64,000 nucleotides of DNA from Williamsia herbipolensis (GTDB taxonomy: Bacteria > Actinomycetota > Actinomycetes > Mycobacteriales > Mycobacteriaceae): assembly GCF_000964005.1 (NCBI RefSeq), contig NZ_JXYP01000038.1, forward strand, positions 62,001-126,000, given 5' to 3'. Of the stretch, positions 48,939-52,075 are shown piece by piece. The stretch's first letter is position 1. Each line of letters begins with the position of its first letter. A program made the position numbers and the translations under genes. The notes beneath the pieces were generated by a model that saw nothing but the letters and a program-made list of their open reading frames with translations, was not told the origin of the DNA and searched no databases.

Positions 48939-49868
48939 TCAAGGAAAGTCGATGCGATCCAGGGCGAATCGTCGGACGCTGCCGGGGATCGTCGCGTCGC
49001 ACGTGGACAGCAGCGGCGGCGACGCCGAGACCCGCAGGGTCACCTCTGCACGCCGACCATCGCCGGCGTCGAGGACGACACGCGCGCTCTCCCCGTCGTC
49101 GAGCACGTCGATCGGCGCGAACGCCTCGATGCGATCGTCTCCGGTGTGTTCGCGAGCGAAGTGCTGCGCGGCCTGCACCACATGCGGCACACACGTCCGC
49201 CCGCGCAGCAGGTCGGCGGCAACGCGCCCCTGGGCGTGTCGGCCCATCAGGTCGACCACGTCCCCGGAGTCGACGCGCCCGTAGCTCAACCCGTCGGGCA
49301 GCACGATCATCGTCGCGGCGAACCGGTCGCCTCCCAGATGCGAGCACTCCCAGGTGATGTCGGGGTTCGCGGCGGCCAGATCGGCCGTCGCGGCCCGACC
49401 GCGCACCGCGCAACACCGGTCGTGTTTGCCGTGGGCGCACACCGCCGCGAGCGGGCCGTCCACGATCGATCCGGCCGAGCCGTCGAGGGGCAGATCCAGA
49501 TAGTCCTCCGGCCCGGAGACCTCGCCGCCGTACATCACCGATCCGACCGGCCTCGTCTGCGCGATGAACCACCGCCAGCGCGGCGTCTCGGCGCGGCGCC
49601 CCGGGCGGCGGATCGCGACGATGCGCATCGAGGCCGCCTCGGCGCGACGGACGATCGCCCGCCCGAGTGCGGGGTCGAGGATGCGCGGCGACTGCAGGAA
49701 CGCCGAGTGTCCCCACGGCCCGGCCACCTCCAGCAGCAGCCAGTCGTGTCCGAGAGACGCCGTCGCGAAAAGCGGTTCGTCGGCCGCTAGCGACCTGTCG
49801 CTACAGGGGGGCAGCGGCATGCCCCGCTCGCCGGCGATCACGCTCGGGCGGGCGCTCGGCGAGGTCAC
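48939..49868 (-). CDS. Sucrase-ferredoxin-like [2Fe-2S] protein
   Basis: A 309-residue protein of the sucrase/ferredoxin-like family, which has a thioredoxin-type [2Fe-2S] fold and no proven sucrase activity. The cluster region is VCAHGKHDRCCAVRGRAATADLA with further Cys in WECSHLGGDRFAAT, which together give the family ligands; TMIVLPDGLSYGRV is also conserved. The C-terminal part (about 225-309) is a small beta domain ending GSVRRFALDRIDFP. The frame is open upstream, but the GTG that overlaps the cupin stop as GTGA is the likely start. It probably supplies electrons to the cupin oxygenase encoded directly before it. Confidence 0.85.
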   Translation of the reverse strand: MTSPSARPSVIAGERGMPLPPCSDRSLAADEPLFATASLGHDWLLLEVAGPWGHSAFLQSPRILDPALGRAIVRRAEAASMRIVAIRRPGRRAETPRWRWFIAQTRPVGSVMYGGEVSGPEDYLDLPLDGSAGSIVDGPLAAVCAHGKHDRCCAVRGRAATADLAAANPDITWECSHLGGDRFAATMIVLPDGLSYGRVDSGDVVDLMGRHAQGRVAADLLRGRTCVPHVVQAAQHFAREHTGDDRIEAFAPIDVLDDGESARVVLDAGDGRRAEVTLRVSASPPLLSTCDATIPGSVRRFALDRIDFP

Positions 49869-51082
49869 ACCCCCGCCGGGACCACGACGGCCTCCCGCAG
49901 AAGGCGTCGGATCACCACGGTCGCGTCGGCGGTGTCGAGGCCAGGAAGGGTTGCCGCGTCCGCACTCTCGGCCGAACGGAGATGACGGAGAGCCGGCGCG
50001 CAGAAGTCGGGGAAGGAGATGGCACGGTCGGACAGCTGCACGTGGACGCGTCCGGCGACCGGGTCGTCGACGACGGACCCGATGAGTCCGTGGCGCCAGC
50101 GCACGCGCACCGATCCTGCGGCGGCGATCGCGTCGAGGGTGGCCAGGGGCCGCACCGCGGCGGGACGGGTGCGGCTCGCGAAGACCTCGGAGAGGTCGGT
50201 GGCGACCGCTGATCCCCACTCGTCGGCGCGGTCGCGGATCTCGTCGGCGAACGCCAGCAACGCCTTCGTCGCGTGGGCGGCGATCGCGTCGTGGTCGGTC
50301 GGGTCGATGCCGACGGGCAGCGAGGTCCGCAGGTCGGTCACCGCGCCGGCGACGCGGTCGACCGCAGCGCGCACGACGTCGACCCGTGTGAGTGCGGGGA
50401 CGCCGATGGTCAGGTGGATGGCGGTCTCGTCGGTGGTCCGCGCCGAGTGCAGCCACCCCCGCGGCAGGTACAGGGCGTCGCCGGGGGCGAGATCGGTGTC
50501 GATGACGGGGGTCTCGGTGACGCGCCGGGAGATGGCGTCGCGATGACCGGTCCACGCATCGGTGGGCAGCGGACTGGTCACGACCGGTTCGTGGACCGTC
50601 CAGTGCTTGTGGCCGGCGACCTGCAGCACGAAGACGTCGTGCACGTCGTGGTGGGAGTCGAAGCCCTGGCTGCCAGGAGGGGTGATGTAGGCGTTGGCCT
50701 GCACGGGATGCCCGAGATCGTCGACGAGGCGACGGACGAACTCGATGACCGGGGGCCACAGGCGGTGCAGACCCTGCAGCACGATGGACGCCCCATCGGC
50801 GAACTGCGCCGACGCCTTTGCCGAGTCGACCTGATCGCCGATCTCGGCCCCGACTCCGGCCGGCCCCAGGAACTCGTCCCGGGACAACAGGGAACCGTTG
50901 CGCGCCATCCGGATGAACGGCGCGCGTACCCCGCGCTCGGAGAGCAACTCGTCGACCGCGGAGGCCGAGAGGAGATCACCGAAGTCGCGGGGCAGCGTCG
51001 TCGAGGTGCTGAGCAGTGGCCTACGACCCCAGTACTCGCGCTGGAAGGTTCCCAGATCGACTGAGATGCAACGGCTCAGCAT
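49865..51082 (-). CDS. Cupin-4/JmjC-like Fe(II) oxygenase
   Basis: A 405-residue protein of the cupin-4 (ribosomal oxygenase-like) group of 2-oxoglutarate/Fe(II) enzymes. It starts in the family manner (FQREYWGRRPLLS). The iron site is in FDSHHDVHDVFVLQVAGHKHW (His-x-Asp) with the distal His in YLPRGWLHSART; the Thr/Lys side of the barrel lies between. The C-terminal 200 residues are helical plus a winged-helix-like end. Family members hydroxylate His or Arg side chains in proteins. The gene begins 12 bases after a short repeat protein rich in His, Asn and Asp and overlaps the ferredoxin gene, so the repeat protein is the natural candidate substrate. Confidence 0.87.
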   Translation of the reverse strand: MLSRCISVDLGTFQREYWGRRPLLSTSTTLPRDFGDLLSASAVDELLSERGVRAPFIRMARNGSLLSRDEFLGPAGVGAEIGDQVDSAKASAQFADGASIVLQGLHRLWPPVIEFVRRLVDDLGHPVQANAYITPPGSQGFDSHHDVHDVFVLQVAGHKHWTVHEPVVTSPLPTDAWTGHRDAISRRVTETPVIDTDLAPGDALYLPRGWLHSARTTDETAIHLTIGVPALTRVDVVRAAVDRVAGAVTDLRTSLPVGIDPTDHDAIAAHATKALLAFADEIRDRADEWGSAVATDLSEVFASRTRPAAVRPLATLDAIAAAGSVRVRWRHGLIGSVVDDPVAGRVHVQLSDRAISFPDFCAPALRHLRSAESADAATLPGLDTADATVVIRRLLREAVVVPAGV

Positions 51083-51094
51083 CTTCTGGTGTCG

Positions 51095-51349
51095 TCAGGC
51101 CGTGCCGTCGGCGCCACCGTCGTGGCCGCCGGGGTTCGAGCCACCGTCGGCCGGGCCCTCGCCCGCACCCGCGGTGCCGTCGGCACCACCGTCGTGACCG
51201 TCGGGGTTCGAGCCACCGTCGGCCGGGCCCTCGCCCGCACCCGCGGTGCCGTCGGCACCACCGTCGTGGCCGCCGGGGTTCGAACCGCCGTCGGCGGGGC
51301 CTTCTCCGCCACCGGTGGAGGTGGTGATGTCATCGTCGTCGAGCGCCAT
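51095..51349 (-). CDS. Short acidic repeat protein, candidate modified-peptide precursor
   Basis: An 84-residue Gly/Asp-rich protein. A 14-residue acidic start (MALDDDDITTSTGG) is followed by three near-identical units of 24, 24 and 22 residues, each beginning GEGPADGGSNP and ending GHDGGADGTA; unit 2 differs by one residue (Asp for Gly). It has no Cys, Lys, Arg, aromatic or signal sequence. GAAAGG lies before the ATG. It is first in a three-gene unit with the cupin oxygenase and sucrase-ferredoxin. The leader-plus-repeats form resembles multi-core peptide precursors, each unit offering one His, one Asn and several Asp for modification. The role is inferred; a structural or calcium-binding repeat is the alternative. 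Confidence 0.75.
   Translation of the reverse strand: MALDDDDITTSTGGGEGPADGGSNPGGHDGGADGTAGAGEGPADGGSNPDGHDGGADGTAGAGEGPADGGSNPGGHDGGADGTA
51102..51317. repeat. 72-bp tandem repeat, three copies, in frame
   Basis: Three direct copies with a 72-bp period start at 51102, 51174 and 51246. The first two differ at only a few bases and the third diverges near its end. The period is a multiple of three and the copies encode the 24-residue units of the short acidic protein. Such near-identity suggests recent duplication or gene conversion and allows easy change in copy number. Confidence 0.92.
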
Positions 51350-51532
51350 GATCTGCCTTTCGTCGCACGTGAGCTGGTGTGTGGTCCAACTCCTCCTGTC
51401 TACCACCAGAGCGACTCGGCTCGTGGGCCTCTCGGACACCTCCGATCCGACCGGTTCCGATGTGTGTGACGCGGGGCCGATGGTGGTACACGCATGCGCC
51501 GGATCCGTACATCCACCCGGGATACTGGGGTC

Positions 51533-52075
51533 ATGCGGTCCCGACAGAAGGTCATCGACGCGGCCCTCGAACTGGTAGGCGAGGGCGGGTTCGCCGCGGC
51601 CAGCATCGCGGCCGTGGCGTCGCGGGCCGGGGTGTCGCGGCAGACGATCTACTCGATCTTCGGCAGCCGTGAGGACATGGTGTCGCAGGCGATCATCAGC
51701 GTGACGATGGCGGCGACGGAGGAGATGCGGTCGGGTGTCGACACCGCCGAGGGGCCCACCGAGTACCTCGTGGAGTTCATCGTCGCCGGCCGGGCGGTGC
51801 TCTACCGACACCCGGTCCTGGCCACCCTGTTGCGCGGCGAATCCCTCAACCCTCTCTTCGATTCCGGCATGCTCGACCGCGCGCGCCCGGTGGCGCGGGA
51901 GATGCTGTCCCCCATGGCCGATCAATTCCCCCAGCTCGCCCCGCGCATCGACGACATCGTCGAGATGGCCGTGCTCCTCGGTCTCTCGGTCATCCTCTTC
52001 GACGACCCGACGGGCCGCTCCGACGAGGACCTCCGCACGTTTTTGACACGCTGGCTCGGTCCGTACCTCGGTTAG
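51533..52075 (+). CDS. TetR-family regulator
   Basis: A 180-residue TetR protein. The DNA-binding domain is RQKVIDAALELVGEGGFAAASIAAVASRAGVSRQTIYSIFGSREDMVSQAI; the rest is helical, with VEFIVAGRAVLYRHPVLATLLRGESLNPLF. The ATG at MRSRQK is preferred to one 13 codons upstream because the helix-turn-helix then has the usual distance. It is divergent from the repeat-protein/cupin operon (183 bases between) and 73 bases upstream of the cholesterol oxidase gene on the same strand, so either could be its target. Confidence 0.85.
   Translation: MRSRQKVIDAALELVGEGGFAAASIAAVASRAGVSRQTIYSIFGSREDMVSQAIISVTMAATEEMRSGVDTAEGPTEYLVEFIVAGRAVLYRHPVLATLLRGESLNPLFDSGMLDRARPVAREMLSPMADQFPQLAPRIDDIVEMAVLLGLSVILFDDPTGRSDEDLRTFLTRWLGPYLG

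Follow-up and report, generated by a model that had tools for sequence, protein, structure and literature searches.

A recurrent three-gene unit of actinobacteria encoding an aspartate-rich repeat peptide, a JmjC_2 cupin and an iron-sulphur protein: a candidate peptide-hydroxylating system

We analyzed a stretch of 64,000 nucleotides from Williamsia herbipolensis (contig NZ_JXYP01000038.1, positions 62,001 to 126,000 of the forward strand), referred to below as the window, with the focus on three adjacent genes that encode a repeat peptide, a cupin oxygenase and a sucrase/ferredoxin-like protein (Suc-Fer). The features of this unit, in window coordinates, are as follows.

51095..51349, minus strand: precursor-like repeat peptide of 84 aa (open reading frame (ORF) reading, Tandem Repeats Finder)
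51317..51349, minus strand: leader-like N-terminus MALDDDDITTS with a motif of the acidic-acidic-D-I type (motif found before 110 of 137 cupins)
51356..51361, minus strand: GAAAGG, resembling a Shine-Dalgarno sequence, ahead of the peptide start codon (read from the sequence)
49865..51082, minus strand: JmjC_2 cupin of 405 aa, a predicted Fe(II)/2-oxoglutarate oxygenase with the ribosomal-oxygenase fold (Pfam, structural model)
48939..49868, minus strand: sucrase/ferredoxin-like protein of 309 aa with a thioredoxin-like ferredoxin part (Pfam Suc_Fer-like, structural model)

The genes follow each other on the minus strand in the order peptide, cupin, Suc-Fer, all in one direction. A spacer of 12 bp (51094-51083) lies between the peptide stop and the cupin start, and the cupin stop codon overlaps the start of the Suc-Fer gene in a GTGA sequence (49868-49865). 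A previous reading made from the letters alone (the sequence-only reading) had described an 84-aa peptide with units of 24, 24 and 22 aa, the 12-bp gap and the GTGA overlap; all of these are present, and we add the strand. It had also named a JmjC-like oxygenase followed by a sucrase-ferredoxin, and both names agree with Pfam, which assigns the cupin to JmjC_2 (E 1.6e-26, 92.7 bits versus a curated cut-off of 22) and its neighbor to Suc_Fer-like (PF06999; E 1.5e-14, 55 bits versus a cut-off of 34.9).

The window peptide consists of MALDDDDITTS and three EGPADGGSNPxGHDGGADGTA units. It contains 14 Asp residues, 10 of them after residue 11, and is devoid of Cys, Lys and Arg. In the DNA, the repeat has a 72-bp period with 2.8 copies and 93% matches (Tandem Repeats Finder), and a 26-base repeat pattern has three exact matches in the 4.74-Mb genome, all inside the peptide gene. 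No family in Pfam or NCBIfam matched the peptide.

Among named relatives, those closest to the cupin come from Williamsia (75-78% identity). All 23 aligned cupins match JmjC_2 at E 10 or better (best 1.9e-30), and H144, D146, K159 and H212 are invariant among them. In sequence profile comparison, NO66 was matched with E 1e-30, with alignment of the H-x-D motif, the distal His and the lysine within G-x-K-x-W, which have metal and 2-oxoglutarate roles in NO66; the profile match to FIH was weak (E 0.0011). The AlphaFold model of the cupin (predicted local distance difference test (pLDDT) score 91.5) has NO66 (4ccn, E 4.2e-25) as its best structural match, followed in order by MINA53, YcfD, Bacillus subtilis YxbC and FIH. 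The last 90 residues are modeled as strands 335-340, 345-350 and 354-358, and then helices 359-370 and 384-396. The predicted fold, the HxD...H triad, the lysine of the 2-oxoglutarate site and this C-terminal winged-helix-like part are shared with the JmjC_2 (cupin 4) enzymes NO66, MINA53 and YcfD, where YcfD has an arginine instead of the lysine. No NCBIfam family matched the cupin; for A3, the NCBIfam search gave weak matches only (best E 0.36).

The model of Suc-Fer (pLDDT 90.9) is closest to thioredoxin-like [2Fe-2S] ferredoxins, although weakly (1m2d, E 0.036; none at 0.001). Its cluster motif is changed to C-x4-HD-x-CC ... SHxGGD. Among 121 distinct operon motifs we counted 117 HD...SHxGGD, two HD...GGE, one HD...GGC and one RD...GGD, whereas 17 stand-alone actinobacterial Suc_Fer-like motifs comprised 13 RD...SHxGGH, three KD...GGD and one RD...GGD; these counts exclude Suc-Fer motifs outside the search pattern. 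Thus the HxxxH of a 2Cys-2His site is not present in the operon proteins, where the second His gives way to Asp in 118 motifs, to Glu in two and to Cys in one; it is also absent from four of the 17 stand-alone members. The replaced His is presumably one of the cluster ligands of Apd1, a member of the same Pfam family. Two Cys and two His are the cluster ligands of Apd1 (PMC11126956). Because the second His of the Apd1-type site is replaced, the predicted cluster site of the operon Suc-Fer would have another ligand set, one that probably differs from that of Apd1.

The cupin was present in 40 of 101 related genomes and in 42 of 296 from a phylum-wide sample. Matches to P0001 were found in 22 of the 101 related genomes, and the cupin was present in all 22. 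The named taxa with the unit include many Mycobacterium and Mycolicibacterium species, Gordonia, Dietzia and Williamsia. We collected 175 cupin loci, of which 138 were distinct and 137 could be used for the upstream region (L047 begins inside the cupin), and compared them with a control set of 818 other ATG ORFs of at least 250 aa from 116 loci of at least 9 kb. We looked for a small acidic low-complexity ORF on the cupin strand that ends between 250 bp upstream and 60 bp downstream of the cupin start and whose 40 C-terminal residues are acidic, with few bulky or basic ones. Such an ORF lies before 126 of the 137 cupins and before none of the 818 control ORFs. The N-terminal motif of the D-D-D-I type taken alone, with composition ignored, was found in 110 of 137 loci and in one control; 107 of the 126 acidic ORFs carry it, compared with a mean of 0.76 after whole-ORF shuffling. 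The combined detector, which demands motif and composition together and so by itself demonstrates neither, recovered 113 of 138 loci and no controls. With 19 additional cases seen by eye, the peptide is found in 132 of 137 loci. The remaining five are L152, which is unclear, and L174-L177, which have the most diverged cupins (28-30% identical) and are without such a peptide.

Of the 137 loci whose flank is long enough (L053 set aside), 125 have the Suc-Fer gene directly 3' of the cupin. Peptide, oxygenase and iron-sulphur genes form one recurrent conserved unit. The sequence-only reading had proposed a single peptide-oxygenase-iron-sulphur system with a short N-terminal motif apart from a repeated core, to be given up if homologous cupin-ferredoxin pairs usually lacked the repeat gene; the system is conserved, and the pairs usually have the gene. 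For 119 of 126 peptide ORFs, the 20 bases upstream of the start contain a Shine-Dalgarno-like word, compared with 16 of 126 in a control stretch.

We extracted 126 peptides, of which the detector had found 113 and inspection by eye the other 13, and classified them into three types. Six peptides that are present by eye were left out (L059, L090, L134, L074, L116 and L165). L059, L090 and L134 have N within the repeat sequence, and in the draft assemblies L074, L116 and L134 the repeat is not in one frame, probably due to assembly errors; automatic annotation may miss peptide genes with such broken frames. Type A, whose membership is itself set by a pattern that one unit has to fit, includes 91 peptides from Mycobacteriaceae, Microbacteriaceae and some others, with the unit consensus EG[PT]ADGG[SA]NPxGHDGGADG[TS]A. 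Type B (12 peptides) keeps DGGADGG, and type C (23 peptides, mostly from outside the class of the window) has short steps such as DGTDGDATD. Median net charges are -17, -21 and -22 for types A, B and C, respectively, and Cys occurs in none of the 126 peptides. Copy number, whose retention the sequence-only reading had wanted checked, is not fixed: 68 type A peptides have three units, 20 have two and three have four.

Between genomes, the type A repeat has 0.553 synonymous differences per site (pS) and 0.064 non-synonymous ones (pN), and the pN/pS ratio of 0.116 indicates purifying selection on the residues of the repeat. Units of the same gene differ less from each other (pS 0.369), so the repeats are partly homogenized. 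The low pN/pS, the Shine-Dalgarno-like words and the linkage of the acidic ORF to the cupin together argue that the repeat peptide is not a product of chance.

For the cupin tree we sampled 63 of the 138 loci, with L174 and L177 on very long branches. All 63 cupins, including the five without a clear peptide, have H-x-D...K-x-W. Mapped on this tree, the peptide type changes seven times, versus a mean of 31.1 for shuffled labels (none of 200 shuffles was as low). Such a pattern fits that expected if enzyme and peptide coevolve; relatedness alone also clusters labels. The tree bears on two explanations in which the peptide is no substrate. In the first, which we consider decidedly improbable, the cupin would hydroxylate a different protein, such as one of the ribosome, and the small acidic protein would act as its regulator, decoy or chaperone. 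The fold of the cupin is that of ribosomal oxygenases and an acidic peptide could act as a mimic, but peptide and cupin type change jointly on the tree, the cupin is patchily distributed among relatives and across the phylum, and the two to four near-identical units of a type A peptide better suit a substrate than a regulator. In the second, the peptide is an unmodified structural or metal-storing protein that shares its operon with the oxygenase and the iron-sulphur protein by chance. Asp/Gly-rich repeats can bind cations without modification, but the joint presence of these genes across the phylum and their joint change on the tree make this explanation highly improbable.

We searched for further members of the unit by all-against-all comparison of ORFs of at least 100 aa in 47 wide loci, in which neighbors were clustered but not individually annotated. 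The clustering recovered the cupin from all 47 loci and Suc-Fer from 37. Clusters of 41, 10 and 7 loci were antisense over the unit, and a cluster of 14 loci was the peptide frame or lay just upstream. At this level of clustering no fourth family recurred in more than six of the 47 loci, the size of the largest cluster away from the unit.

This result has to be weighed against a classical ribosomally synthesized and post-translationally modified peptide (RiPP), with a hydroxylated core, a leader cut by a protease, and export of an antibiotic, signal or metallophore to act outside the cell. Two RiPP-like traits are found in the sequences: a putative precursor gene is conserved together with the adjacent gene for an enzyme of the modifying type, and an apparently conserved leader is set apart from a core that varies more between types A, B and C. 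Repeated units within this leader-core layout also suit a RiPP, and a peptidase and an ABC transporter adjoin the cupin of a distant Streptomyces relative. Cupin or JmjC hydroxylases are part of the RiPP pathways pbs and bpm (PMC12257519), and a 2025 paper reports RRE-like folds (RRE, RiPP recognition element) in a subset of PF08007 proteins and bacterial homologues in RiPP-like contexts (PMC12710340). However, no fourth family recurs in more than six of the 47 wide loci, in which neighbors were clustered, and the type A core is strongly conserved, unlike that of a diversifying weapon. We therefore regard an exported product as distinctly unlikely. Together with the absence of a recurrent fourth gene, the strong conservation suggests instead a standing role inside the cell, for example in metal binding or as a cofactor.

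From these observations we infer a reaction, a target and a role for the unit. The peptide would be made by the ribosome and hydroxylated post-translationally by the cupin, which would bind the N-terminal motif, perhaps through its C-terminal winged-helix-like part, and would beta-hydroxylate Asp residues of the core with the use of O2 and 2-oxoglutarate. Suc-Fer would most likely supply electrons, keeping or returning the iron to Fe(II), or else serve a second redox step. The product would be an acidic, metal-chelating beta-hydroxyaspartyl peptide that stays mainly inside the cell and is not a secreted antibiotic. We give this proposal as a whole about an even chance of being correct. Asp appears the likeliest target because it is the one reactive side chain that all peptide types share, and His may be an additional target in type A. 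Gly and Ala are also common, but neither is known as a substrate of this enzyme class. A ferredoxin as electron donor, also put forward in the sequence-only reading, is possible, though the gene is not obligatory: in G012 and G074 the peptide and the cupin are retained, but neither genome has a match to Suc_Fer at E 0.001, and hence the Suc-Fer gene can be lost.

Several observations limit or weigh against Asp hydroxylation by a leader-guided cupin. The presence of Asp in all 126 extracted peptides favors it as the target, but this universality is partly selected because the detector demands acidic residues (Asp or Glu); among the 110 motif matches obtained with composition ignored, 108 have at least 10% Asp and the other two are masked or frame-broken. 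We gathered 256 type A units with a 60% identity threshold and no fixed positions. Also in favor of Asp, every unit has it at positions 5, 14 and 18 (position 11 is free), but Asp is not singled out there, because several Gly and Ala are likewise retained in 256 of 256 units, Asn in 254 and His in 252. L151 and L153 have no leader motif and L150 has an altered one, and no RRE or PqqD family appeared among the Pfam matches of the 23 cupins up to E 10. Suc-Fer is missing from 12 of 137 loci, seven of which have a clear peptide. Metal binding by the product is proposed on chemical grounds. Upstream of the 126 peptide genes we found no IdeR box and two Zur-like sites (0.6 in shuffled sequences). 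Finally, the closest solved relatives of the cupin hydroxylate His or Arg.

The last point and the type A counts lead to another reading, in which the His (perhaps the Asn) of each unit is hydroxylated and the Asp residues serve for charge or recognition only. The nearest solved relatives, NO66 and MINA53, are histidyl hydroxylases, and type A units keep both His and Asn almost without exception. The other peptide types differ in this respect. In type B, Asn is absent from 11 of 12 peptides and His from two, and some units of L032 and L151 have Gln or Ser at the type A His position. In type C, His is absent from 19 of 23 cores and Asn from 17; Gly falls to 15% of these cores, a further point for Asp as the target. 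Altogether, 21 of 35 type B and C cores lack His and 28 lack Asn, beside cupins of the same family, so we consider this reading unlikely. The sequence-only reading had listed His, Asn and Asp as residues whose retention should be followed and as possible sites: in type A all three are kept, in types B and C only Asp is present throughout, and neither His nor Asn holds up as a general target.

NO66, MINA53 and YcfD act on ribosomal proteins, whereas the cupin described here is linked to a repeat peptide whose gene lies immediately upstream. FIH, the human asparaginyl hydroxylase of HIF and of ankyrin repeats, whose substrate range includes Asp, is likewise a JmjC hydroxylase that acts on repeat proteins, but it belongs to a different JmjC subgroup and its repeats are folded. 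In RiPP pathways of the biphenomycin type, the cupin/JmjC hydroxylases PbsQ and BpmG act on the precursor peptide and hydroxylate ornithine after an MNIO (multinuclear non-heme iron-dependent oxidative enzyme) and an arginase (PMC12257519). They have in common with our proposal a cupin-fold hydroxylase working on a ribosomal precursor peptide; the three-gene unit differs from these pathways, as compared by description, in having Suc-Fer and no MNIO or arginase partner. The proposed product, beta-hydroxyaspartate in a ribosomal peptide, has precedents in PesHI, an MNIO reported to modify one Asp of a RiPP (PMC13060819), and in SmaO, reported as an Asp beta-hydroxylating RiPP enzyme (PMC13097080). 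PesHI is of another enzyme class, and in contrast to its single Asp the peptides considered here have 9-10 core Asp residues in tandem units. The three-gene unit was not described among the matches listed in the open-licence full-text literature, where the closest accounts are those of PMC12710340, PMC12257519, PMC13060819 and PMC13097080 cited above, and a description elsewhere is possible.

If the proposal is true, the phylum would have a family of modified peptides produced by the protein-hydroxylase branch of the cupins, with many hydroxyaspartates per chain. Peptide-modifying enzymes would then be connected with the bacterial kin of the ribosomal oxygenases, and the Apd1-type iron-sulphur site would gain a new variant. 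A bolder version, which we hold to be speculative and rather less than likely, is that actinobacteria make a templated poly(beta-hydroxyaspartate), a standing, non-secreted metal-binding or cofactor-like molecule, with a repurposed ribosomal oxygenase and a ligand-changed iron-sulphur partner, and that this would be a new phylum-wide class of modified proteins.

The remaining observations concern the surroundings of the unit and its distant relatives. A TetR-like regulator (named by eye) is encoded at window positions 51494-52075 on the plus strand, divergent from the operon and about 145 bp from the peptide start; it was not recurrent in the ORF clustering of 47 loci. Upstream of the 126 peptide genes there was no DosR box. 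SigF-like sites numbered 10 versus 0.6 expected, a count that includes near-identical relatives and both strands, and they were rejected as a stricter pattern gave two sense and two antisense sites. A SigH-like pattern was found 11 times in sense and once in antisense orientation. PADLOC reported no defense system, and the cupin had no match in phages. Among plasmids, 135 records matched the cupin, all below 60% identity, and the 15 matches listed are from Streptomyces clavuligerus (29.5%). The locus L209:6772-8167 on plasmid NZ_CP065235.1 of this species encodes a distant cupin (29.5% identical) preceded by a hypothetical 48-aa peptide with an LEPDEIEV stretch and a DP-rich tail, and adjoined by an S9 peptidase and an ABC transporter; this locus looks like a RiPP-type sister system. 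In L169, where the cupin is without Suc-Fer, the peptide has an ITDNDI motif followed by two near-identical units of a different kind (PTEDDENLDAPGEHSQDTGDE). The distant loci L175 and L176 have short ORFs ending in RSDGND upstream of the cupin and an aldo/keto-reductase-like ORF (named by eye) downstream of it.

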